A stretch of 64,000 nucleotides of DNA from Pseudomonas abieticivorans (GTDB lineage Bacteria > Pseudomonadota > Gammaproteobacteria > Pseudomonadales > Pseudomonadaceae): assembly GCF_023509015.1 (NCBI RefSeq), contig NZ_CP094975.1:5635501-5699500 (forward strand), given 5' to 3'. Position 1 is the first letter of the stretch, and each line of letters starts with the position of its first letter. Shown here in pieces: positions 23,077 to 47,021 of this stretch. The notes under the pieces are model-generated. The model ran no database searches and was not told the DNA's origin. It saw only the letters and a program-made list of their open reading frames with translations. Position numbers and translations under genes: made by a program.

Positions 23077-24525
23077 CTACTGCTGCAGCACATTGGCCTG
23101 GTTCAACGAACCGGTCTGCTGCACGGTCGCTGTCTGGCTGTAGCCGCTCTGGTCCACGGTGGCGGTGTTGGCGGTGCCGCCCTGGGTCACGTAGGCGACG
23201 TTCAGGCTGTCGGCCTGCTTGATGTTGATCTGGTTGTCCGAACCGTACAACTGCGCGGTGTAGGCTTGGTTGTTGCTGCCCGACTGGTCGAACGTGGTGC
23301 TGTTGCCGGTGCCGGCGCTGGACCCCTGGGCCAGGTTGCTTTCGCCGCGCTGGTCAGAGATCAGGATGTTGTCGCTGCCATTCTGGTCGAAATACAGCTC
23401 GTTGAACGCGTCGGCCTGGGTCACCGTGGCCTGGTTGCGTTGGCCGGTCTGGTTGAGCTGGGTCAGGTGGCTGGCGCCGTCCTGGGTGAAGGTGGCGACG
23501 TTGGCGGTGCCGTTCTGGTTGATGAACGCCTTCTGGCTGGAACCGCTCTGGCCGCCCACGTGGGCACCCTGGAAGGGGTTGGCGTTGACCTTGTTGCCGT
23601 CGCCCAGCGAGCTTGCGCTGATCAGGTGGTTATCGCCGGTCTGGTAGGTGAAGTGCGCGTTGTCGTTGCCGCTTTGATACAGCTGCACGGTAGAGCCGAT
23701 GGACTCGAACTGGTCGACGTACAGCGCGTTGAGGTCACCCACCTGCAACACCGTGGCCAGGTTGCTCTGGCCGAAACTCTGGTCGAGGGTGGCCTCGTTG
23801 CTATTACCCATTTGCGTCACGTGGGCTTCGCTGCCCAGGGTCTGGGTGTCTTGCCACACTTCGCTGGCGTTGAGCGTGCCGCTCTGGGTGATGGTGGTCA
23901 GGCCGCCGTCGCCGTTGCGCTGGTCGGCGTAGGCGTATTGGCCGTCGCCAGTCTGGTTGATGCTGATCTGCCCGCCCATGTGCAGCACCTGCTCGGTGGC
24001 GGCATAGTGGTTGAGGCCGAACTGGGTGACGAAGGCACTGTTGTTCAGGCCGCCGAACAGTTGCTCCATGTAGGCGCTGTTGTTGTCCCCCGATTGCAGG
24101 CTGCTCAGCCGGCTGCCCTGCTGCGAGTCCTGGTACACGAACGAGAAGTTGCCGGTGCCGTCCTGTTGCTGTTCGGCCTGGTTGCCGATGCCCACCGACT
24201 GGCTGGCGTGGGCGGTATTGAAGCTTCCGTTCTGCTGCTGTTTGATGGTGCTGGCATCTTCGAATAACTGCTCGGCGTAGCCGGCGTTGTAGCTGCCACT
24301 TTGAATCTGGTCGATTTGGCCGTCGGTGGTTTGTTGCACGCTGGCCGCGTCGTTGCCCTGGCCCTGCTGCTGTTGGTTGGCCTTGGCGTTGCTGGCCTGG
24401 GTTTGCTGCACGTCGGCGATGTTGGCGGTACCGTCCTGGATTTGGCTGGATACGCTGTCATCGGCCATGGCGTGGGCGCTGAGCACCACCAGCAGGGCGG
24501 CGGCGAGGGGGTTTAGTCTGAACAT
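23077..24525 (-). CDS. csgA: Curlin repeat protein, large CsgA-like amyloid subunit
   Basis: A 482-residue secreted protein: signal peptide FRLNPLAAALLVVLSAHAMA followed by roughly twenty imperfect repeats of the curlin type, Q-x-G-x-x-N-x-A-x3-Q (for example VTQMGNSNEATLDQSF, INQNGTANVATFTQ, VTQGGTANTATVDQSG). Each forms a beta-strand-loop-strand unit of an extracellular amyloid. It is about three times the length of E. coli CsgA (about 151 residues, five repeats). GGAGG lies 7 nt before the ATG. It follows the CsgB-like gene by 29 bp. No csgD, csgE, csgF or csgG is in the window, so the export channel must be elsewhere. Confidence 0.9.
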   Translation of the reverse strand: MFRLNPLAAALLVVLSAHAMADDSVSSQIQDGTANIADVQQTQASNAKANQQQQGQGNDAASVQQTTDGQIDQIQSGSYNAGYAEQLFEDASTIKQQQNGSFNTAHASQSVGIGNQAEQQQDGTGNFSFVYQDSQQGSRLSSLQSGDNNSAYMEQLFGGLNNSAFVTQFGLNHYAATEQVLHMGGQISINQTGDGQYAYADQRNGDGGLTTITQSGTLNASEVWQDTQTLGSEAHVTQMGNSNEATLDQSFGQSNLATVLQVGDLNALYVDQFESIGSTVQLYQSGNDNAHFTYQTGDNHLISASSLGDGNKVNANPFQGAHVGGQSGSSQKAFINQNGTANVATFTQDGASHLTQLNQTGQRNQATVTQADAFNELYFDQNGSDNILISDQRGESNLAQGSSAGTGNSTTFDQSGSNNQAYTAQLYGSDNQINIKQADSLNVAYVTQGGTANTATVDQSGYSQTATVQQTGSLNQANVLQQ

Positions 24526-24554: not shown

Positions 24555-25016
24555 CTAGCGGTACTGTTTGACTGAAACGCTCATACCGTTGCCCGACTGC
24601 GTCACGGCGCTTTGCAGCCCCGTACCGGCCTGATCGATGCTGGCGTTGTTGTTGCTGCCGTTTTGCGAAATCTGCGCCCGGTTGTGGCTGCCGTTCTGGC
24701 TGATGGACGCGCTGTTGCCGTAACCCTGTTGATTGATCGTGGCCATCAGGTCACTGCCGGCCTGCAGGATGTAGGCCTCCTGGTTGCTGCCCGACTGCAC
24801 GATGTTGCCCAGCAGCGACTGGCCGTTCTGCTCCACGCGGGCCTGGTTGGCCTGGCCGTTCTGGTCGATCAGCGCGTGCTGGCCCACCGGCGGCGGCAGC
24901 TCGCCCAGGTCGGTGCTGGGCGCAAGGTCGGCGTTGTCCATCAGGTCATCGGCGCAAACCGTGCCACTGCCCGCCAGCATTGCCAGGCACAACAGCGCGG
25001 CTTTGAGTACGTCCAT
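24555..25016 (-). CDS. csgB: Curlin minor subunit, CsgB-like nucleator
   Basis: A 153-residue secreted protein. The signal peptide (LKAALLCLAMLAGSGTVCA) is followed by a short acidic, proline-containing region and about five curlin repeats (IDQNGQANQARVEQNG, INQQGYGNSASISQNG, ISQNGSNNNASIDQAG), ending QSGNGMSVSVKQYR. Size, repeat number and the basic C-terminal end fit CsgB, which nucleates CsgA polymerisation at the cell surface. AGGAGC sits 6 nt before the ATG. A strong hairpin lies immediately upstream in the transcript. Confidence 0.86.
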   Translation of the reverse strand: MDVLKAALLCLAMLAGSGTVCADDLMDNADLAPSTDLGELPPPVGQHALIDQNGQANQARVEQNGQSLLGNIVQSGSNQEAYILQAGSDLMATINQQGYGNSASISQNGSHNRAQISQNGSNNNASIDQAGTGLQSAVTQSGNGMSVSVKQYR

Positions 25017-25073: not shown

Positions 25074-27323
25074 TTACAGGGTGGTTACCGAGACCGTGCG
25101 CACCGTCCCTTGCGAGGAGCGGATGGTCGCGGTCGGGTTGGCCGAGGGGATCGGCGTGGTCAGGTTGTTCAAGGTCAACCGCCATCTGCCGGTGGCCGGC
25201 ACGGTGGTGGTGCCCAGGGTGACCAGCCCGGTCGGCGTGGTGACCTGCACGGTGATGGTATTGCCGGTGGTCACCGACGAGGTGCCGGCAAAGTCCCAGT
25301 TGAAGCGGTTGCCGGAGCGCGCCTGCACCGTGGCGGTGGTCACCGTGAAGGTTTCCGCGGCAGGTTTGGGCGAGACCTGCACCGTGACCGTGGCCGGCGT
25401 CGACAGGGCGCCGAAGCTGTCACGGGCGATGTAGGTGAAGGTGGTGGTGAACGCTGTGGTCACCGTGGCCGGTGGCGTGTAGGTGATCACTGTGCCGTCG
25501 GTGCTCACGGTGCCGCGCCCGGCAGCCGGTTGGGTCAGGCTGGCGACGCCCAGGGGCACGTTGCCTTCGGGGTCGGTGTCGTTGGCCAGCACATTGATCG
25601 CGATGGCCACGCCCAGGGTGGCGACGGCGTCGGCGTTGGCCACCGGTGGCCGGTTGGGCGCCACGCTGACGCTGACGTTGGCCGGGGTGGAGTTCAGGCC
25701 TTTGGCGTCCTGGGCCATGTAGGTGAACACCGCGGTAATCGGCGTGTTGACCACCGCCGGCGGGGTGTACACCACCGACGTCGAGCCATTGAGCACCACG
25801 CTGCCCAACCCCGAGGCCGGTTGCGTGAGCCCGGTGATGCTCAGCGGCGTGTTGCCGTCCGGGTCATGGTCGTTGGCCAGCAGGTTAAGGGTGATGGGCA
25901 CGCCAAAGCCGGTGCTGGCGGTGTCGGCCACGGCCACGGGCGGTTGGTTGTCGCCGGTATTGGGCGCATTGCCCACCACTTTTACCCATTCGGTGTCGCT
26001 GCCGCCTGCTGCCGATTTCACCGTGACGCTGGCCGGCGGTTGGGCCAGGTCGGCCACGGTCAGGCGTTGCAGGGTACCGGACTTGGACAACCGGCCGAAG
26101 CCTTGCGCGACCATGTCGGGCACCGCCACTTCATCGCTGGAGGTGGCCTCGATCACCAGGTTGTGGTTGCTCCAGGTGTAGGTGGCGGCGCTGATTTTGA
26201 CGATGTCGCTGAGTTTGCTCGACACCGCCGTGGGCCGGGTGGTGCCGGCCGGGTTGCTGGCTGTGACCACCACCAGCGCGGGCAGGGTGTTGCCGGTGAG
26301 CAGGTGCTGGCCGAAGTACAGCCCGGTGTTGTCGTTCGCAAGGCTGGTTTGGCAAGGCGTGGCCGGTGGGCCTGGCAGCAGCGCCAGGGTTTCGCGAAAG
26401 CACAGGCTGGAGCTGTTGGGCGAATGGGCGAACACCTCGACGCGGGTGTTGTTGCCACCGCCGCTGGTGGTGCGCCGGTAGGTGATGCGGTCGACGTCCA
26501 CCGGGGTTTGCGCGCGGTTATCGTAGACCTTGCCGGTCAGGTTGAACAGGCTGGTCTGGATCGTGCCGGGCGGGCCGCTGATGCGGATGAAGTTGGTGCC
26601 CTGCGGGCTGCCGGTCACCGCTTCCGCCAGGTTAGGGTCGCCAATGAAGGTTTCGCTGGCACCGGTCTCCGGGTTGACCTCGATATAGGGGCCATTGACG
26701 GCATGCAGGAACGGCCCGATGGCCCCGTTCAGCGCGCCGCCGAAATTGCCGGGGGCGGCCACGCCGATGTCGCGGGTCACGTTGATCGCGCGCCGGCCCG
26801 GGGTGGTGACGTTGAAGGTTTCGGTGCCGTAGGGGTGGGTCACGGTGTAGCTGCCGGCCACCGGCACGTTGATGCGCAGGCGGATGCGCGCAAAGCTGAT
26901 CTGCTGGCCGTCCACCGGGTCTGGGGTGGTGAACGCCGCCTCGATGCCCGCCACATAGGCTTCCAGCTCATACCCGCTGTTGCCCACGGCCGGGATCTTG
27001 GCCTCGGCCACGGTCCAGAAGGCCTCTGGTGGCCAATTGTCGGGGAACACCATGGGCAGGGTGTCATCGAAGATGCCCGGCTCCGGCAGGATGGTGCACA
27101 TGTATGAAGGGGTGCCCGCTACGCTGGGCACCCGCGAGCTCAATGCCTTGGACTGGCAGAGTTCGAGCTGCAGGTTGGTGGAGTCCTGATACCACAGCGG
27201 GAAGCGCCCGGTGGCGGCAGTGTAGGGGCCGCTGTCGACGGCAGCCAGGGTCGCGTGGGCGGTGCCCGACAGCGATATCGAAAGCCCCAGGGCGCTGAGC
27301 GCCAGGCGTGGCCAATTGTTCAT
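25074..27323 (-). CDS. Secreted protein with shared N-terminal domain and two cadherin/Ig-like repeats
   Basis: A 749-residue exported protein. After a signal peptide (LALSALGLSISLSGTAHA) comes a domain of about 430 residues related to the next gene upstream (GPYTAATGRFPLWYQDS, VTHPYGTETFNVTTPGRRAI, GDPNLAEAVTGSPQGTNFIR). Two repeats of the RTX/cadherin-like type follow (NQPPVAVADTASTGFGVPIT and NRPPVANADAVATLGVAIAI, each with a LANDxDPxGN motif), then a Thr/Val-rich C-terminus. CAGGAGG precedes the ATG at 27323. No catalytic motif is seen. Position in the curlin operon suggests a matrix or surface protein; the molecular role is unknown. Confidence 0.85.
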   Translation of the reverse strand: MNNWPRLALSALGLSISLSGTAHATLAAVDSGPYTAATGRFPLWYQDSTNLQLELCQSKALSSRVPSVAGTPSYMCTILPEPGIFDDTLPMVFPDNWPPEAFWTVAEAKIPAVGNSGYELEAYVAGIEAAFTTPDPVDGQQISFARIRLRINVPVAGSYTVTHPYGTETFNVTTPGRRAINVTRDIGVAAPGNFGGALNGAIGPFLHAVNGPYIEVNPETGASETFIGDPNLAEAVTGSPQGTNFIRISGPPGTIQTSLFNLTGKVYDNRAQTPVDVDRITYRRTTSGGGNNTRVEVFAHSPNSSSLCFRETLALLPGPPATPCQTSLANDNTGLYFGQHLLTGNTLPALVVVTASNPAGTTRPTAVSSKLSDIVKISAATYTWSNHNLVIEATSSDEVAVPDMVAQGFGRLSKSGTLQRLTVADLAQPPASVTVKSAAGGSDTEWVKVVGNAPNTGDNQPPVAVADTASTGFGVPITLNLLANDHDPDGNTPLSITGLTQPASGLGSVVLNGSTSVVYTPPAVVNTPITAVFTYMAQDAKGLNSTPANVSVSVAPNRPPVANADAVATLGVAIAINVLANDTDPEGNVPLGVASLTQPAAGRGTVSTDGTVITYTPPATVTTAFTTTFTYIARDSFGALSTPATVTVQVSPKPAAETFTVTTATVQARSGNRFNWDFAGTSSVTTGNTITVQVTTPTGLVTLGTTTVPATGRWRLTLNNLTTPIPSANPTATIRSSQGTVRTVSVTTL

Positions 27324-27358
27324 GATGCCTCCTGAAACGAAACTGGGCCGAGGGGTGC

Positions 27359-28705
27359 TCATTGCACGATGACCACTTCTTCGGTATCGCTGCCGCCGTT
27401 GGACGACGTCACCTTGACCAGGGCCGGCGGTATCGGCGAAATGCCGGTGGCCAGGGTTTTCACCGCGCCATCACCGCTCAGCGCGCCGATGGTCACGCCT
27501 GTGCCGGAGGTGGCCGTGAGCAGCGGCGGCGAGGTTTCATCGCTGCTGGAGGCCACCAGGGTCAGTTGCCCGGTGCTGAGGCTGTATTCGGCTTTCTGGA
27601 TGATCACCAAATCCGTCAGCGGCAAGGCCAGGGTGGTCGGCGTGCTGCTGGCGATGGCCAGGTGGTTGTCCGCAGTCAGCAACAGGTTGCTCGGCAGGGT
27701 CGGGTTGCTGGCCGACTGGGCATACCAGTTGCCAGTGGCGGTGTTTTCGATCAGCGCCAGGGCCGGGCTGTTGCTGGCCAGGGTCACGGTGCCGGGCGGC
27801 GGTGGGGCCATCACGAACACGTCCTGCTGGGCCACAGGTGCGCTGTCGCCGGCATGGCGCGAGTAGGTACCACGCTGGGTGATCAGCGGGGTGGGCCGGA
27901 CCACGCTCGAGAGCTTGCCGGACACCGCGAACACGGTGGTGCGCACATCCAGGCCATTGGGGCCCTCGATGCGGATGTAGTTGGTGTTGTAGGGGCTGCC
28001 GGTGACCGCCTCGGTGAGGTTGGGGTCGCCGACGAAGGTTTCCGCCGCGCCGGTTTGCGGGTTGGTTTCGGTGTACGGGCCATTCACCCCGCGTAGGAAC
28101 GGGCCGATGTCGCCCTTCAGCGCGCCGGTGAACACCTGCGGGTCGCCGATGCCCAGGTCGCGGGTCATGTTGATCGCGCGCCGCCCGGGGGTGGTCACGT
28201 TGAACACGTCCACGCCGTAGGGGTGGGTGATGACATAGGTGCCGGCGGTGGGCACGTCGATGCGCATACGCACGCGGGCAAAGCTGATCTGCTCGTTTTC
28301 CGCGGGAAGCCCGCCACTGAACGTGGCCTCGATGGCCGCGCCATAGCTCAGGTTGATGCCCCGGGCGGCATCGACCAGGGTGCCGTCGGCGGTGAACCAG
28401 AAGGCTTCGTCGGGGAAGTTGCTGGGGAAGACGATCGGCTTGGTGTCGTCGAACACCCCGGGGTTGGGGATCAGCGAGCACATGTACGACGGTGCCCCGG
28501 GGGTGCCGGGCACGCGGGAGCTTTGGGCCCGCGACAGGCAGAAGTCGAGCACGCGGCCGTGGCTGTCCTGGTACCAGCTGGCGAAGTGGCCGTTGCTGGC
28601 CGGGTAGGGCCCAGGGTCGACGTCGAACAGCGCGGCGCGGGCGACGCCTTGGGCGAGGCAGGCGACGACCATCACCGACGCGGTTTTAGACAGTAAAGGG
28701 TGCAT
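27359..28705 (-). CDS. Secreted protein, paralogue of the Ig-like repeat protein
   Basis: A 448-residue exported protein (signal peptide SVMVVACLAQGVARA). It is collinear with the first part of its neighbour (DVDPGPYPASNGHFASWYQD, ITHPYGVDVFNVTTPGRRAI, VGDPNLTEAVTGSPYNTNYI) but lacks the Ig-like repeats. Its end, KVTSSNGGSDTEEVVIVQ, corresponds to the SAAGGSDTEWVKVV segment just before the repeats there, so gain or loss of the repeat tail separates the paralogues. It is the first gene of the curlin operon, with a sigma54-type promoter about 60 bp upstream. Function unknown. Confidence 0.84.
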   Translation of the reverse strand: MHPLLSKTASVMVVACLAQGVARAALFDVDPGPYPASNGHFASWYQDSHGRVLDFCLSRAQSSRVPGTPGAPSYMCSLIPNPGVFDDTKPIVFPSNFPDEAFWFTADGTLVDAARGINLSYGAAIEATFSGGLPAENEQISFARVRMRIDVPTAGTYVITHPYGVDVFNVTTPGRRAINMTRDLGIGDPQVFTGALKGDIGPFLRGVNGPYTETNPQTGAAETFVGDPNLTEAVTGSPYNTNYIRIEGPNGLDVRTTVFAVSGKLSSVVRPTPLITQRGTYSRHAGDSAPVAQQDVFVMAPPPPGTVTLASNSPALALIENTATGNWYAQSASNPTLPSNLLLTADNHLAIASSTPTTLALPLTDLVIIQKAEYSLSTGQLTLVASSSDETSPPLLTATSGTGVTIGALSGDGAVKTLATGISPIPPALVKVTSSNGGSDTEEVVIVQ

Positions 28706-28764: not shown

Positions 28765-28780
28765 GGCAACTTCCATACCA
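28765..28780 (-). promoter_or_regulatory. Sigma54 (-24/-12) promoter of the curlin operon
   Basis: Read on the minus strand, TGGTATGGAAGTTGCC matches TGGCACG-N4-TTGCW at the key positions. The -24 GG (28779-28778) and -12 GC (28767-28766) are separated by exactly 10 nt. A transcript would start near 28754, leaving a 5' leader of about 50 nt before the ATG at 28705. Confidence 0.72.
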
Positions 28781-28963
28781 AGGCCTGCGCTTTGAACCAC
28801 GATGCCCGCGCCACGCGGCTCGCGGCGGTTAAGGCGGCAACGCGACGGGTGCGGGGTGTGGGGCGCAACCCCCGGCATTGGGGGCAGGTGGGGAATGGGG
28901 AAGGGCAGGCAAGAACCGATGAGTGGTCTATAACCCTATAGTCATCGGCGTAAAGGATATTTC

Positions 28964-30409
28964 ATGACCAGGCATGAGCCGCCCCGCAGTGAGCGCCCCG
29001 CAACGCTCGCCACCGCGCGCAAGCCCTTCAACCTGTTGCGCTGGTTTTCGGTGATCAGCCTGGCCATCATCGGCCTGGTTGCGCTGGGCCTGGGCGCGGT
29101 GTCCACCCGCTTCGTGATCCAGGAGAGCGTGGCGCGCGATGCCTTGCTCACCGCGCAGTTCATTCAGTCCATTGCCTCCACCGAAGTGCGCCACACCACC
29201 ATCCCCAACGTGCGGACCCTGGGCGAATTGCTCGACCCACGCCATGACGCGGACTTCCCGGACGTGGAACCGGGCGCGCGGGCCAAGGCCCGGCACGAGT
29301 TCCTCGATCACATCGAACACTTGCCCGACGTGCTGCTGGCCTCGGTGTATGCCCCTGATCGCACGGTGATCTGGTCGACCAACCCGGCGCTGATCGGCAC
29401 GCACATCGATGAGGACGACGACCTGGAGCATGCCTTTCGCTACAAGATCCCGGTGTCGGCCAGTTATCACAATGTCGATAACGCGCGCATGGAGCAGAAA
29501 TTCCTCACTCCGCCCGACTTCCTGTTCATCGAAAACTACATTCCGCTGTTCAACGCCGACGGCGACAGCGTGGCTGCCATGGTCGAGATCTACAAAGAGC
29601 CCAAAGACCTGATCAACCGCATGGAGCGCGGCCTGGTGCTGATCTGGACCTCCACGGCGGTGGGCGGCGCGTTGATCTATTTCGGCCTGTTCTGGATCGT
29701 GCGCCGCGCCGCGACCTTGTTGGTGGAACAGCAACAACAACTGATCACCAACGAAACCTTCGTGGCCCTGGGCGAGATGTCCTCGGCGGTGGCCCACAGC
29801 CTGCGCAACCCCCTGGCCACCATCCGCTCCAGCGCCGAACTGGCCCTGGAGTTCGACGGTGGCGCGGCGCACAAGAACATCACCGACATCATCAACCAGG
29901 TCGACCGCATGTCCAAATGGGTCCGCGAGCTGTTGCAGTCGTTGCGCCCGCTCAATGACGACCCGGAGCCGGTCAACCTGGTGGCCTGCGTGCACGACAG
30001 CCTGCTGGCCTTCGAGCAGCAGATCGAGCGGGCCCAGGCCCACGTGATCTTCAGCCCGGCCTTCACGCCCATGGTGCTCAGCCAGCATGTGCAAGTGACC
30101 CAGATCCTCAACAGCCTGTTGGCCAATGCCTTGGAGGCGATGAGCCGCGGCGGCACCTTGACCCTCACCTTGGAGCCTGAGGGCGCCCAAGCCGTGAGCC
30201 TGACCCTGACCGACACGGGCAAGGGCATGAGCGCCGAACAGCGCAGCATGGCCTTCCGGCCATTTTTCACCACCAAACAGGGCGGGCTGGGGGTGGGCCT
30301 GGTGCTGGTGAAGCGGATCATGGAACGCTTTGGCGGCCAGGTGCAGCTGCACAGCGTGGAAGGCGAAGGGACCCGCGTGAGTCTTTCGTTCCCGTTGGCA
30401 ACCACCTGA
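28964..30409 (+). CDS. mnxS1: Sensor histidine kinase, MnxS1-like
   Basis: A 481-residue membrane kinase. TM1 (about 27-47) and TM2 (about 224-246) bracket a periplasmic domain of about 175 residues. The dimerisation/phosphoacceptor box is GEMSSAVAHSLRNPLATIRS (H278), followed by N-box NSLLANALEAM, G1 DTGKGM, F-box FRPFFTTK and G2 GGLGVGLVLVKR. It is closely paralogous to the kinase at 34613. In P. putida GB-1 two kinases, MnxS1 and MnxS2, act with MnxR to allow Mn(II) oxidation; the numbering here follows gene order and is tentative. AAAGGAT lies 8 nt before the ATG. Confidence 0.82.
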   Translation: MTRHEPPRSERPATLATARKPFNLLRWFSVISLAIIGLVALGLGAVSTRFVIQESVARDALLTAQFIQSIASTEVRHTTIPNVRTLGELLDPRHDADFPDVEPGARAKARHEFLDHIEHLPDVLLASVYAPDRTVIWSTNPALIGTHIDEDDDLEHAFRYKIPVSASYHNVDNARMEQKFLTPPDFLFIENYIPLFNADGDSVAAMVEIYKEPKDLINRMERGLVLIWTSTAVGGALIYFGLFWIVRRAATLLVEQQQQLITNETFVALGEMSSAVAHSLRNPLATIRSSAELALEFDGGAAHKNITDIINQVDRMSKWVRELLQSLRPLNDDPEPVNLVACVHDSLLAFEQQIERAQAHVIFSPAFTPMVLSQHVQVTQILNSLLANALEAMSRGGTLTLTLEPEGAQAVSLTLTDTGKGMSAEQRSMAFRPFFTTKQGGLGVGLVLVKRIMERFGGQVQLHSVEGEGTRVSLSFPLATT

Positions 30410-30536
30410 CAATGGGTGTGAACTTTCCCCGCAGGTGGGTGTCATTCCCCAGTCGTTTGCCCGATTTCTTGAAATATTTTTTTACAAGTGCTTGAAACCA
30501 CGGCATTTTAAAAAACACCTTTCGAGCGCCAAAAGC

Positions 30537-30552
30537 TGGCGAGCTAATTGCT
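30537..30552 (+). promoter_or_regulatory. Sigma54 (-24/-12) promoter of the multicopper oxidase gene
   Basis: TGGCGAGCTAATTGCT fits TGGCACG-N4-TTGCW, with GG (30538-30539) and GC (30550-30551) exactly 10 nt apart. Transcription would begin near 30563, about 30 nt before the ATG at 30593. This also rules out the upstream in-frame start at 30548. Confidence 0.78.
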
Positions 30553-30592
30553 CCTGTGCCATCACCCCTTCAAGCAAACGAGGCGGATGGCG

Positions 30593-33400
<2,808 letters not shown>

Positions 33401-33412
33401 GGGGAAACAGTC

Positions 33413-34507
33413 ATGGCTGCTCACGCAATGGGTACCCGGGCACGGGGCATGCACTTGATCCTGATGTTGGTGGCCGGGCTGCTGGGCAGCCAGGCCTTGG
33501 TGGCGCACCAGGTGCCGGCGCCGCCTGCGCAGGCGTCGGCCACCCCGTGGGGTGAGGGCTATTTCCCCAACACCCCGCTGACCAACCAGGACGGCCAGGC
33601 GGTGCATTTTTTCGACGACCTGATCAAAGACAAGGTGGTGGTGATCAACTTCATCTTCACCTCGTGCACCGATTCCTGCCCGCTGGAAACCGCGCGTTTG
33701 CGCCAGGTGCAAAAGTTGCTGGGGGAACGGGTGGGCCAGGACGTGTTCTTTTATTCCATCACCATCGACCCCGACACCGACACCCCGGCGATGCTCAAGC
33801 GCTACGCCGAGAAGTTCAAGGTGGGGCCGGGCTGGCAGTTTCTCACCGGCAGCAAGGAGGATGTCACCCAGTTACGGCAAAAACTGGGGTTGTTCATCGA
33901 GGGGGTGGACAACGGCCGCAGCAAAGACCACAACCTCAGCCTGATCGTCGGCAACCAGGCCACTGGGCGCTGGATGAAGGCTTCGCCGTTCGAGAACCCC
34001 TGGATTCTGGCCGACCAATTGGCCAATACCCTGCAAAACTGGAAGCAGCCCAGCGCCGAGCAAAGCTACGCCGACGCGCCGGTGGTGCGCCCACCGAGCA
34101 ACGGCGAGGAGCTGTTCCGTACCCGTTGCGCTTCGTGCCACAGCATGGGCCCGCTGGACGGCCAGGGCCTGGGCCTGCGCAGCATCGGCCCGGACCTGAT
34201 CGGGGTGACCGGCAAGCGCGACCCGGCCTGGCTGAGCCGCTGGCTGAAAGAACCGGACCGCATGCTGGCCGAGAAAGACCCGCTGGCCACCGCCTTGTAC
34301 GAGCAATACGACAAGGTGGCCATGCCCAACCTGCGCCTGGACGACGCCGCGACCTTGGCGTTGTTGACCTACCTGCAGGAAGAAACCGACCGCCAGCACC
34401 CACCGGCCGCACCGATGGCGGATGCGGCAATGGACATGGACATGGACCACATGGAGCACATGCATCACACCCAGGACGCTGCCGACAAGGGGGCTGCGGT
34501 TCCCTGA
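33413..34507 (+). CDS. SCO1/SenC copper chaperone fused to a c-type cytochrome
   Basis: A 364-residue membrane-anchored or exported protein in three parts. A SCO thioredoxin-fold domain (about 45-210) has copper-binding TSCTDSCPLE and a distal histidine in KDHNLSLI. A mono-haem cytochrome c domain (about 235-325) has CASCH and an axial methionine candidate in VAMPNLRLDD. A Met/His-rich tail (MDMDMDHMEHMHH) follows. It starts 12 bp after the oxidase stop behind AGGGGAAA. It probably metallates or exchanges electrons with the multicopper oxidase. Confidence 0.88.
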   Translation: MAAHAMGTRARGMHLILMLVAGLLGSQALVAHQVPAPPAQASATPWGEGYFPNTPLTNQDGQAVHFFDDLIKDKVVVINFIFTSCTDSCPLETARLRQVQKLLGERVGQDVFFYSITIDPDTDTPAMLKRYAEKFKVGPGWQFLTGSKEDVTQLRQKLGLFIEGVDNGRSKDHNLSLIVGNQATGRWMKASPFENPWILADQLANTLQNWKQPSAEQSYADAPVVRPPSNGEELFRTRCASCHSMGPLDGQGLGLRSIGPDLIGVTGKRDPAWLSRWLKEPDRMLAEKDPLATALYEQYDKVAMPNLRLDDAATLALLTYLQEETDRQHPPAAPMADAAMDMDMDHMEHMHHTQDAADKGAAVP

Positions 34508-34612
34508 TCGTCGACTAGAATTACCGGCGTCTGCCTCATGACTAAAGTATCAATGCTTTAGACAGAGGGGCAGGCTACACAGCGGTACCCACGGCATCCC
34601 GGAGTTTCTCCC

Positions 34613-36115
34613 ATGCTGATGCTCAAACAACAACAAAGCGCCGACCACGGCGCGCAGGCCTTGGAACAGAAAGTCTGGCGCGGGCCTTTCAACCTGCTGC
34701 GCTGGTTTTCCCTGGCCAGTTTCTTGATCATCGGGGCGGTGGCCGTGGGCCTGGGCTATGTGTCCACCCGGTTCGTGGTGATCGAAAGCGTGGAGCGCGA
34801 CGCGCTGTTGACCGCGCAATTCATCCAGGCCATCGCCGAGGCGGAACTGCGCCATGCCGGCATCACCAGCCACCGCACCATGGGTGAATTGATCGACCCG
34901 CGCCAGGACGACGCCTATCCCGATGTCGACCTGGCTGCCCGCACCAGCGCACGCAACGAATTCCTCGACCACATCGAGCAATTGCCCGACTCGCTGCTGG
35001 CCAGCGTGTATGCCCTGGACCGCACGATCATCTGGTCCACCAACCCGGCCCTGGTGGGGGTCAAGATCGATGATGACGATGACGACGACCTGGGTGATTC
35101 CTTCAACCTGAAGGTGCCGGTGTCGTCCAGTTACCACCGCATCGACGATGAACGCCCCGAGCAGAAACTGCTGCGCGAGCCGCGTTACCTGTTCATCGAG
35201 AACTACATCCCGCTGTTCGACGCCGACCACAGCAAGGTGGTGGCCATGGTCGAGATCTACAAGGAGCCCATGGACCTGGTCGAGCGTATCCGCCGCGGTT
35301 TCACCCTGATCTGGGTGGCCACGTTGTTTGGCGGCCTGCTGATCTACCTGGGCCTGTTCTGGATCGTGCGCCGCGCCGCGCGGCTGTTGCAAAGCCAGCA
35401 AATGCAACTGGTGGCCAATGAGACGTTCGTTGCCCTGGGCGAAATGTCCTCGGCGGTGGCCCACAGCCTGCGCAACCCCCTGGCCACGATTCGCTCCAGT
35501 GCTGAGCTTGCGCAAGAGGTGGCCAACCCGCCCGCGCAGAAAAACATCGGCGATATCATCAGCCAGGTTGACCGTATGTCGCGCTGGGTACGCGAATTGC
35601 TTGTCTCACTGCGGCCCATGAACGACGACCAGGAAGCCGTCGACTTGGTGCTGGCAATCGACGACACCGTCAATGCCTTCGATGCGCAGATCAAGCGCGC
35701 TGGCGTGCAGTTGCAGTTCAACCCGCAGACCCATCCGCCGGTGATCAGCCAGCAGGTGCTGTTGACGCAAATCCTCAACAGCTTGTTCGCCAACGCGCTG
35801 GAGGCTATGCCCAAAGGTGGGGTATTGACCATCGAAGTGCTGCCGTTGCCCAACGATCGCCTGCAAATGGTCTTGACTGATACAGGCAAGGGCATGAACA
35901 AGCAGCAGGAACGCATGGTGTTCAAGCCGTTCTTTACCACCAAGCAAGGCGGCCTGGGCGTGGGCCTGGCGTTGGTAAAACGAATCATGGAGCGCTTCGA
36001 GGGCTCGGTCGACCTGACCAGCCAGGAGCAGGAAGGAACCCGTGTAAGTCTAAACTTTAGAGTGGCAGCGGGAGGGGAATATGGAGCACAGCATATTGCT
36101 GGTCGAGGACGATGA
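34613..36115 (+). CDS. mnxS2: Sensor histidine kinase, MnxS2-like
   Basis: A 500-residue paralogue of the kinase at 28964, alignable along its whole length (FNLLRWFSL, VLTAQFIQ-like periplasmic start, DRTIIWSTNPALVG, ENYIPLFDADHSK). The H-box GEMSSAVAHSLRNPLATIRS is identical to that of the paralogue; DTGKGM, FKPFFTTK and GGLGVGLALVKR follow. The periplasmic domain has an acidic DDDDDDLGDS stretch, a possible metal-contacting loop. The last 35 bp overlap the response regulator gene, so the two are co-translated. CGGAG lies 8 nt before the ATG. Confidence 0.82.
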   Translation: MLMLKQQQSADHGAQALEQKVWRGPFNLLRWFSLASFLIIGAVAVGLGYVSTRFVVIESVERDALLTAQFIQAIAEAELRHAGITSHRTMGELIDPRQDDAYPDVDLAARTSARNEFLDHIEQLPDSLLASVYALDRTIIWSTNPALVGVKIDDDDDDDLGDSFNLKVPVSSSYHRIDDERPEQKLLREPRYLFIENYIPLFDADHSKVVAMVEIYKEPMDLVERIRRGFTLIWVATLFGGLLIYLGLFWIVRRAARLLQSQQMQLVANETFVALGEMSSAVAHSLRNPLATIRSSAELAQEVANPPAQKNIGDIISQVDRMSRWVRELLVSLRPMNDDQEAVDLVLAIDDTVNAFDAQIKRAGVQLQFNPQTHPPVISQQVLLTQILNSLFANALEAMPKGGVLTIEVLPLPNDRLQMVLTDTGKGMNKQQERMVFKPFFTTKQGGLGVGLALVKRIMERFEGSVDLTSQEQEGTRVSLNFRVAAGGEYGAQHIAGRGR

Positions 36116-37508
36116 GATCCTGGCCGAGAACATCCAGACCTACCTGGAGCGCAAGGGCTTTGAGGTGACCGTGTGCCACAGCGCCGAAGACGCCCTTGAG
36201 CAGTTGCGCGTGTTCGCACCCGACGCGGTGCTGACCGACAACTCGCTGCCGGGCATGAGCGGCCACGACCTGATCCAGAAGCTGCGCGTCAGTGCGCCAG
36301 ACCTCAAGGTGATCATGATGACCGGCTACGGCAACATCGAGGACGCCGTGGTGGCGATGAAGGAGGGCGCCTTTCACTACGTGACCAAGCCTGTGGCCCT
36401 GCCGGAGCTCAAGCTGCTGCTGGACAAGGCCCTGGCCACCGAGCGCATGGAGCGCACGCTGTCGTTCTACCAGGAGCGCGAGGCGCAGAAGTCTGGCGTG
36501 CAGGCGCTGATCGGCGAGTCGGCGCCCATGCTCAACATGAAAAGCACCATCGGCCAGTTGCTTGAGGCTGAACGGCGCATGGCCAACACCGACCTGCCCC
36601 CGGTGCTGGTGGAGGGCGAAACCGGCACCGGCAAGGAACTGGTGGCCCGTGCCCTGCATTTCGACGGCCCGCGCAGCAAGGGCCCGTTCATTGAATTCAA
36701 CTGCGCCTCGATCCCCTCCAACCTGCTGGAATCGGAACTGTTCGGCCACGAGAAGGGCGCCTTCACCGACGCCAAGGATCGCCGCGTGGGCCTGGTGGAA
36801 GCGGCCGACGGCGGCACGCTGTTCCTGGATGAGGTGGGCGAGATGGACCTGCTGCTGCAGGCCAAGCTGCTCAAGCTTTTGGAAGACCGCACCATCCGCC
36901 GCGTGGGCTCGGTGAAGGAGCGCAAGGTTGACCTGCGCATTATCAGCGCCACCAACTGCAACCTGGAGCAGATGGTGCAGCAAGGCAAGTTTCGCCGCGA
37001 CCTGTTCTTTCGCCTGCGCATCATCTCCATCAAGGTGCCGCGCCTGTACGCCCGCGCCGACGACATCCTGCTGCTGGCGCGGCACTTTCTGGCCCAGCAC
37101 GGCAAGCGCTATGGCAAGCCGCACCTGCACTTCAGCGCCCAGGCCGAGGAGTTGATGCTCAGCTACAGCTGGCCGGGCAACGTGCGCGAATTGCGCAACA
37201 TGCTCGAACAGACCGTGCTGCTGGCCCAGCACGACACCATCGCCGCCCACCAACTGAACGTGTGTCACAGCCTGGTGGACGAGCCCCTGTTGCAACACGA
37301 ACCGTTCAGCAGCGAACCGCGCGCGCCCATCAACGGCGTGGAGCACATGAACCTGCCGGAGGTGGAGCGCGACATGGTGCGCAAGATGCTCGACAAGACC
37401 GACTGGAACGTCACCAAGTCGGCCAGGCTGCTGGGCTTGAGCCGGGACATGCTGCGCTATCGGATCGAGAAGCTGGGGTTGATGCGGCCGGACAAGCGCC
37501 AGTGGTGA
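36081..37508 (+). CDS. mnxR: Sigma54-dependent response regulator, MnxR-like
   Basis: A 475-residue NtrC-type activator. The receiver domain has D53 (AVLTDNSLPGMSG), T81 and K103. The AAA+ domain has Walker A GETGTGKE (about 179-186), the sigma54-contact loop GAFTDA (226-231, a variant of GAFTGA), Walker B GGTLFLDEVGEM and arginine fingers in FRRDLFFRLR. A C-terminal Fis-type HTH (about 433-455, WNVTKSARLLGLSRDMLRYR) completes it. GGGAGG precedes the ATG, which lies within the kinase gene. Two sigma54-type promoters in the same cluster are the likely targets. Confidence 0.86.
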   Translation: MEHSILLVEDDEILAENIQTYLERKGFEVTVCHSAEDALEQLRVFAPDAVLTDNSLPGMSGHDLIQKLRVSAPDLKVIMMTGYGNIEDAVVAMKEGAFHYVTKPVALPELKLLLDKALATERMERTLSFYQEREAQKSGVQALIGESAPMLNMKSTIGQLLEAERRMANTDLPPVLVEGETGTGKELVARALHFDGPRSKGPFIEFNCASIPSNLLESELFGHEKGAFTDAKDRRVGLVEAADGGTLFLDEVGEMDLLLQAKLLKLLEDRTIRRVGSVKERKVDLRIISATNCNLEQMVQQGKFRRDLFFRLRIISIKVPRLYARADDILLLARHFLAQHGKRYGKPHLHFSAQAEELMLSYSWPGNVRELRNMLEQTVLLAQHDTIAAHQLNVCHSLVDEPLLQHEPFSSEPRAPINGVEHMNLPEVERDMVRKMLDKTDWNVTKSARLLGLSRDMLRYRIEKLGLMRPDKRQW

Positions 37509-46850: not shown

Positions 46851-47021
46851 GTGGGAGCGAGCGTGCTCGCGAAGCGTTGCACGAGCGGCGCTTGGAGGCG
46901 AGCCTTTGACGATTGTCGACTGGGATCTCGTCAAGGCTGCCAGGTGCTAGCCGATGTTGTTTCAGTGCCTGTGAGATCGCGCGCCGCCCGCGCGGCGCTT
47001 CGCGAGCAAGCTCGCTCCCAC
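46851..47021. repeat. REP doublet in a 384-bp gene-free stretch
   Basis: GTGGGAGCGAGCGTGCTCGC (from 46851) and the inverted GCGAGCAAGCTCGCTCCCAC (to 47021) enclose about 125 bp. The remainder of the 46819-47202 gap shows no ORF with family similarity. A fragment of the other REP type (GTAGCGGATTTATCTGCG, about 47147-47164) lies further right. Confidence 0.8.

Follow-up and report, generated by a model that had tools for sequence, protein, structure and literature searches.

Curli genes and genes for manganese oxidation lie back to back in the window analysed here, a 64 000 nt stretch of the Pseudomonas abieticivorans genome (G000:C1:5635501−5699500; the 6.7-Mb genome is a single contig, C1, while G- and L-numbers denote genomes and loci). 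The window contains two divergent transcription units, a leftward operon, secA-secB-csgB-csgA, and a rightward cluster, mnxS1-mcoA-SCO1/cytochrome c-mnxS2-mnxR (table 1). Gene families were assigned by Pfam, and secA and secB are labels coined in this analysis for the two secreted-protein genes of the operon. The PF07012 repeats of CsgA and CsgB, together with csgE, csgF and csgG elsewhere in the genome, point to a curli system. An initial annotation had proposed that the curlin operon and the neighbouring oxidase gene are read from sigma-54 promoters under a shared activator. The NtrC-type activator and two paralogous kinases on which that proposal relied are borne out by Pfam and by the 66% identity of the two kinases over 463 aligned positions, and its gene starts at 28705 (−) and 30593 (+) are both ATG codons. 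The genes of its curlin operon are present, although csgA and csgB fall outside the interval 28765−37508 that it gave.

Table 1. Positions of the genes and candidate regulatory elements. Coordinates are those of the window, except for csgEFG.
Feature	Position	Strand	Description
csgA-like major curlin	23077..24525	−	482 aa; PF07012, 6 stretches
csgB-like minor curlin	24555..25016	−	153 aa; PF07012, 3 stretches
secB, secreted	25074..27362	−	secA-like N-terminal part, Big_9/cadherin-like C-terminal part
secA, secreted	27359..28705	−	first gene of curlin operon; no Pfam family; 4-nt overlap with secB
Curlin-operon sigma-54 box	28765..28780	−	TGGTATGGAAGTTGCC; 9/12 consensus positions; GG-N10-GC
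Curlin-operon UAS candidate	28860..28883	−	CCCC-AATGCC-GGGG-GTTGCG-CCCC; pattern CCCC-N6-GGGG-N6-CCCC
mnxS1-type sensor kinase	28964..30409	+	HisKA+HATPase; divergent from curlin operon
mcoA UAS candidate	30427..30450	+	CCCC-GCAGGT-GGGT-GTCATT-CCCC; pattern CCCC-N6-GGGT-N6-CCCC
mcoA sigma-54 box	30537..30552	+	TGGCGAGCTAATTGCT; 10/12 consensus positions; GG-N10-GC
mcoA-type multicopper oxidase	30593..33400	+	935 aa; PF07731; type named from family and gene order
SCO1/SenC + cytochrome c protein	33413..34507	+	PF02630, PF00034
mnxS2-type sensor kinase	34613..36115	+	HisKA+HATPase
mnxR-type NtrC-family response regulator	36081..37508	+	receiver PF00072, sigma-54 AAA+ PF00158, Fis-type HTH PF02954
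csgE, csgF, csgG	G000:C1 ~5.871−5.873 Mb		by Pfam

Direct reading of the sequence confirmed both of the −24/−12 boxes that had been proposed, at their original positions and with the GG-N10-GC spacing; they were scored against the consensus TGGCACG-N4-TTGCW, which has 12 informative positions. A scan of contigs for SecA confirmed 213 loci, and the best 80 of these were aligned with the window to give 81 sequences. The −24 TGG of the secA box and the A and G that follow it are invariant (81/81), the −12 element is GC in 58 of 81, and the GC-type box begins 68−76 nt ahead of secA. Mean column identity of this box is 0.90. By comparison, identity is 0.07−0.61 in eleven of sixteen 16-nt blocks taken 90−330 nt upstream of secA. 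The remaining blocks, at 0.64−0.83, comprise a pair immediately upstream of the box (0.64, 0.73), a pair over the candidate upstream activating sequence (UAS; 0.75, 0.83) and a single block close to mnxS1 (0.73). The secA-mnxS1 intergenic alignment comprised 50 loci, omitting 22 with a length outside 200−330 nt and eight more without mnxS1. Judged by the 81 aligned sequences, the box of the curlin operon qualifies as a phylogenetic footprint. It also scores at least 9/12 in 20 of 20 further genomes, a subset of the 48 genomes with secA described below. On the other side, a box of at least 9/12 is present at the mcoA site in 67 of 72 slices (the window and 71 loci), and mcoA or a piece of it lies further off in four of the five slices that lack one (L024, L042, L054, L079 and L087). 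The mcoA gene itself is absent from 20 of the 72 loci that reach mnxS1, and the box is retained in 19 of those 20; at L016, L017, L023, L026, L036 and L081 the promoter of the mcoA site now sits upstream of SCO1. A sigma-70 scan of 22900−37700 returned 2 sites against 1.6 expected.

The secA and mcoA promoters have in common a palindrome, CCCC-R-N4-Y-GGG(G), 75−100 nt upstream, from which the UAS pattern was derived. This pattern is found in 70 of 75 secA promoters (dinucleotide shuffles gave a mean of 2.5 and at most 8), 79−92 nt from the −24 element; at the mcoA site 63 of 67 promoters have it (shuffled mean 0.36, at most 2), 75−100 nt from the −24 element. The secA count covers 75 of the 81 sequences, leaving aside L030, L060 and L081, where a C precedes the box, and L044, L048 and L085, where upstream DNA is short; the alignment of the mcoA-side palindrome covers 61 of the 72 sequences. 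Among the 20 further genomes, 19 carry the secA palindrome, at any distance between secA and mnxR. A comparison of the two promoter regions across Pseudomonas, which the initial annotation had also put forward, finds the boxes conserved (81 sequences and 72 slices) and likewise the common palindrome (75 and 67 promoters).

Searching the whole genome with a combined pattern (UAS-N80-110-TGG-N8-TTGC) yielded three matches: secA, mcoA and C1:5851587−5851713. The third lies directly upstream of a gene for a 1936-aa protein that has no Pfam family and whose closest solved relative is MnxG (PDB 9bxa_A, E 2.1e-71), making it a predicted MnxG-type Mn oxidase about 190 kb from csgBA. Genes for a beta-propeller protein, two SCO1 proteins and a SurA-like protein follow on its 3′ side, and an mnxG operon of this content is given in a figure legend of PMC8218464. 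Every one of the 47 mnxG promoters compared (46 places in 45 other genomes, two of them in G087, plus this one; G076, whose contig begins 292 nt ahead of the match, was omitted) scores 10/12 or better for the box. In another genome, G005, many identical copies of one repeat, perhaps an insertion sequence, match the combined pattern, and we regard these as false positives of the pattern.

A fourth promoter separates the SurA-like gene from a receiver-domain gene (C1 ~5.863 Mb) and carries two perfect palindromes, CCCCAATAGTGGGG and CCCCAAATTTGGGG, and the box TGGCATGAAGTGTGCT. The receiver gene heads a co-directional type II secretion system (T2SS) run encoding GspE, a PilN-like protein (just under the Pfam cut-off), a secretin and a pseudopilin, and the last genes are csgE, csgF and csgG. 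The first ATG of csgE (L129:9129), taken as its start, overlaps with the stop of the preceding open reading frame (ORF), which has no Pfam family. From 21 slices, two of which lacked the receiver gene, both palindromes and the box were found in 19 of the 19 genomes whose slice contained it. The csgEFG genes, absent from the curlin cluster of the window, are therefore located in the Mn-oxidase/T2SS cluster behind the same signature as secA and mcoA, a point that the initial annotation had missed. In a leave-one-promoter-out analysis, a 21-nt matrix was applied to 94 kb of this genome. With secA sites excluded from training, it placed the secA site (13.5) behind only the receiver-run and mcoA sites and level with mnxG (13.4), and the left-out mnxG and receiver-run sites likewise ranked among the targets. 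The promoter architecture of the candidate MnxR regulon is thus common to secA, mnxG and mcoA, with the left-out matrix recovering secA and failing to recover mcoA.

The distribution of these genes was examined across an even sample of the genus, 149 Pseudomonas genomes, with a threshold of E ≤ 1e-180 for mnxR. We found secA in 48 genomes and mnxR in the identical 48; neither is present in the other 101, and none has one alone. All 47 genomes with mnxG fall inside these 48. Curlin repeats occur in 50 genomes, namely all 47 with mnxG plus three, and CsgF in 49. Fisher tests of co-occurrence gave p < 1e-31, a value that ignores relatedness and linkage. In the three additional genomes (G020, G068 and G115) curlin and CsgF are present but secA, mnxR and mnxG are not, and upstream of csgE in two of them (L177, L178) there is neither box nor palindrome. 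Where the contig extends far enough, in 72 of the 80 loci, mnxS1 always adjoins secA. In six genomes (G025, G045, G102, G104, G110 and G134) mnxR and secA are ~0.1−1.3 Mb apart on one contig, and all six retain the secA box and palindrome, so that linkage is not the whole cause of the coupling.

The boxes and palindromes could be real but used by another sigma-54 activator, such as a general surface or biofilm regulator, with MnxR a mere neighbour. Candidates are plentiful, since an NtrC-like query returned 62−154 at first look in each genome listed, and we infer MnxR binding to the palindromes from their motif and position. An alternative activator would, however, have to accommodate the exact match between the mnxR ortholog and secA in 48 of 149 genomes, even where the two are far apart, and the presence of the sites at the promoters of both Mn oxidases, whose proposed regulator, in the available portions of PMC11930936, PMC8218464 and PMC11409713, is MnxR. 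We consider this alternative improbable.

Several observations weigh against a single MnxR regulon that includes curli. Sites with at most three mismatches to the box consensus number 148 in the window against 163.8 expected, so single boxes are at chance level, and the case rests instead on conservation across genomes. The UAS alone is common in such GC-rich DNA, occurring twice in the window against 1.2 expected, leaving its position and its combination with the box to carry the weight. A reversed control pattern gave two genome matches compared with three for the true pattern. The −12 element of secA is GT rather than GC in 23 of the 81 aligned sequences. Only 22 of the 47 mnxG promoters have a strict UAS, two of these at 152−166 nt, though many of those without one carry other arrangements of G4/C4 blocks. 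Left out of the training, the secA site scores only 13.5 when the best non-target reaches 11.3, and the mcoA site, left out in the same way, is outside the top ten. Sites resembling those for integration host factor (IHF) are frequent at mcoA (45/67), whereas secA, with its GC-rich spacer, has no good one (at most one mismatch in 1/80), and the responses of the two promoters need not be identical. Kinship among the genomes means that the UAS and box counts are not independent events. Finally, some genomes depart from the pattern: G021 keeps secA and mnxR without mnxG, curlin or CsgF; G137 keeps mnxG with a single curlin repeat match and no CsgF; G049 has an intact mnxG and a broken secA; and L050 has lost csgA and retains a csgB fragment alongside mcoA. 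The coupling of curli and Mn oxidation can therefore be broken.

The chance level of single boxes would also fit another history, in which the curlin operon was inherited with the manganese cluster as one block and the sigma-54-like sequence arose by coincidence; curlin, mnxR, CsgF and mnxG do lie within ~40 kb of each other in several genomes (G128, G053 and G005, for example). Neighbourhood of this kind does not account for a box and UAS conserved at fixed spacing when most of the intergenic sequence is not, for a UAS in secA promoters so far above the shuffled mean, or for the retention of both elements where secA and mnxR are unlinked, and we regard it as a very improbable explanation.

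Taken together, the conserved box, the common palindrome, the four promoters, the co-occurrence across 149 genomes and the conservation of sites where the genes are unlinked suggest that curli and the two Mn oxidases very probably form a single regulon controlled by MnxR and sigma-54. Membership of the curlin operon secA-secB-csgB-csgA in this predicted MnxS1/S2-MnxR sigma-54 regulon is, in our estimation, highly likely. The earlier claim of one sigma-54 activator, most probably MnxR, for both the curlin operon and a Mn oxidase is thereby strongly supported by comparative evidence, to which the mnxG and receiver-T2SS-csgEFG promoters have been added. In the scheme that we propose, MnxS1 and MnxS2 would sense a manganese-related signal and phosphorylate MnxR, a step taken from published work on Pseudomonas putida GB-1. 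Oligomers of MnxR would then bind CCCC-R-N4-Y-GGG(G), which at secA and mcoA is accompanied by an extra C-block one turn away from the palindrome, and would activate sigma-54 polymerase at the −24/−12 boxes observed ~75−140 nt downstream. Four units would respond: mcoA-SCO1, mnxG with its helpers, receiver-T2SS-csgEFG and secA-secB-csgB-csgA. The T2SS plausibly exports the oxidases. Under one control, the oxidases, T2SS, curli channel and curlin fibre would be made together, so that the cell would oxidise Mn(II) while placing an acidic amyloid on its surface; if secA-csgBA is indeed included, curli would be Mn-induced in these bacteria.

What the amyloid does is a separate question from its regulation. 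CsgA is acidic, with a computed pI of 4.05 without its first 20 residues, and contains 41 D/E, 9 K/R and 117 N/Q residues, a composition that would suit cation binding. The fibre may plausibly hold the oxidases or, in line with the scaffold suggested by the initial annotation, serve as a nucleus for Mn oxide, although this is a matter of inference only. In a more complete model, which has a little over one chance in three by our own reckoning, one Mn-responsive sigma-54 regulon, comprising the oxidases, a T2SS dedicated to them, the channel for curli and an acidic fibre, would build a mineralised amyloid matrix in Mn-oxidising pseudomonads, the fibre with SecA and SecB anchoring the secreted oxidases and templating Mn oxide at the cell surface. 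A differing view of function, which shares the co-regulation, is that this is a surface or biofilm matrix regulon of which Mn oxidation is one output, with curli serving adhesion and having no interaction with Mn oxide. We judge this evenly balanced between true and false. It draws support from the retention of secA and mnxR in G021, from the available portion of PMC9765421, which connects biofilm with Mn(II) oxidation through c-di-GMP in P. resinovorans, and from the six loci in which the mcoA-site promoter now precedes SCO1. At these loci, where both flanks are visible, csgBA and mcoA are both absent and secA-secB, SCO1, mnxS1/S2 and mnxR are kept, which suggests that SecA and SecB may have a separate role. 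The loss of csgA from L050, where mcoA is kept, indicates that curli can disappear first.

Relatives of SecA were found in Pseudomonas, both by the contig scan and by a protein search. Neither Pfam nor a PDB sequence search at E up to 1 yielded a match for SecA, and the names attached to its relatives among the 120 matches listed of 1488 were, where given, hypothetical or uncharacterized protein or ‘Glycoprotein gp2’. An AlphaFold model of SecA built with 26 close relatives had a mean pLDDT of 42.5 and was set aside. SecB shares 45% identity with SecA over 448 aligned positions. The top NCBIfam model for csgB is CsgB, with a score below the cut-off of that model.

Further features of the two units were apparent. 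The secA leader (28706−28763, −) is conserved at about promoter level (identity per block 0.80−0.88) and includes a C4/G4 stem-like element, for which post-transcriptional control is possible. Between secB and csgB there is a strong hairpin without a T-run (25039−25065, −; CCCCACCGGCA-TTGCC-TGCCGGTGGGG), which may set the stoichiometry of secB to csgBA or partly halt transcription. An Rfam scan of 22000−40000 gave no match at gathering scores. A conserved element at 28921−28941 (+; consensus TGGGCTATAACCCTATAGGGG), 22−43 nt ahead of the mnxS1 start in the window, is a possible mnxS1 promoter or operator. With start codons as predicted, the mnxS2 and mnxR frames share 35 nt (36081−36115). At L060, mnxS1, mcoA, mnxR and secB are each split over several frames, reflecting decayed genes or poor assembly; a 5.8-kb insertion there was ruled out, as mnxS1, broken into several frames, adjoins secA. 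Repeats of TGGGAGCGAGCTTGCT in both orientations, at 47005−47020 and 62305−62936 of the window, are REP-like.

The manganese part of this regulon resembles systems already described. The regulator set, the kinds of oxidase and the sigma-54 boxes are like those of the MnxS1/MnxS2/MnxR system and the mnxG and mcoA operons of P. putida GB-1. In the available portions of the literature, the gene order mnxS1-mcoA-SCO1-mnxS2-mnxR matches that of the Mn-oxidising strains MS-1 and DSV-1, and an rpoN insertion in MS-1 abolishes Mn oxidation (PMC11409713), while sigma-54 and IHF sites are predicted at the promoters of mnxG and mcoA, which require Mn for their activity in stationary phase (PMC11930936). 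The words curli, csg and amyloid have no occurrences in PMC11930936, PMC11409713, PMC9765421 or PMC8218464. The initial annotation knew of no description of a coupling between curli and Mn oxidation, and we likewise found none in the available portions of the open-licence literature. The analysis presented here supplies a motif for the candidate MnxR regulon and names four transcription units in it. With oxidases that are apparently co-made with an extracellular amyloid, it also opens a new and testable approach to the question of why bacteria oxidise manganese. In many Pseudomonas, curli-type and Mn-oxidase genes share a type of regulatory switch, which suggests one manganese-response regulator for both.

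The curli part has in common with the E. coli system (csgBAC/csgDEFG) its curlin repeats, the CsgB/CsgA pair and CsgE, CsgF and CsgG. It differs from that system in the sigma-54 boxes and palindrome that accompany its two transcription units, one with csgBA and one with csgEFG, in the 482-aa length of CsgA and in the two further secreted proteins of the curlin operon. Curli in E. coli depend on CsgD and RpoS. No LuxR-type family, to which a CsgD-type regulator would belong, was seen among the Pfam-scanned neighbours of either csg operon, a set that leaves some ORFs unscanned and does not amount to a genome-wide CsgD search. Clusters of csgAB and csgEFG have been noted in Pseudomonas before (PMC3056050, PMC3521004, in their available portions). 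Wu et al. (2010; PMC3056050) list csgAB and csgEFG in one part of their paper and the genes for Mn oxidation in another, and Dueholm et al. (2012; PMC3521004) place csgD near the csg operons only in P. stutzeri and suspect other regulators; the portions available of these two papers make no link between curli and Mn oxidation, and ‘manganese’ does not occur in that of PMC3521004. The predicted regulon offers an answer to the question raised in 2012 of how Pseudomonas curli are controlled without a neighbouring csgD (PMC3521004).

The T2SS run may also have a counterpart in P. putida GB-1. In 2003, de Vrind and colleagues reportedly described a Gsp-related pathway through which this strain secretes its Mn-oxidising factor, and this pathway possibly corresponds to the run downstream of mnxG. 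Unlike the GB-1 pathway, the T2SS run here begins with an MnxR-type promoter and ends in csgEFG. Compared with the GB-1 Mnx system as described in the papers cited, the regulon predicted here extends to csgBA and to T2SS-csgEFG.

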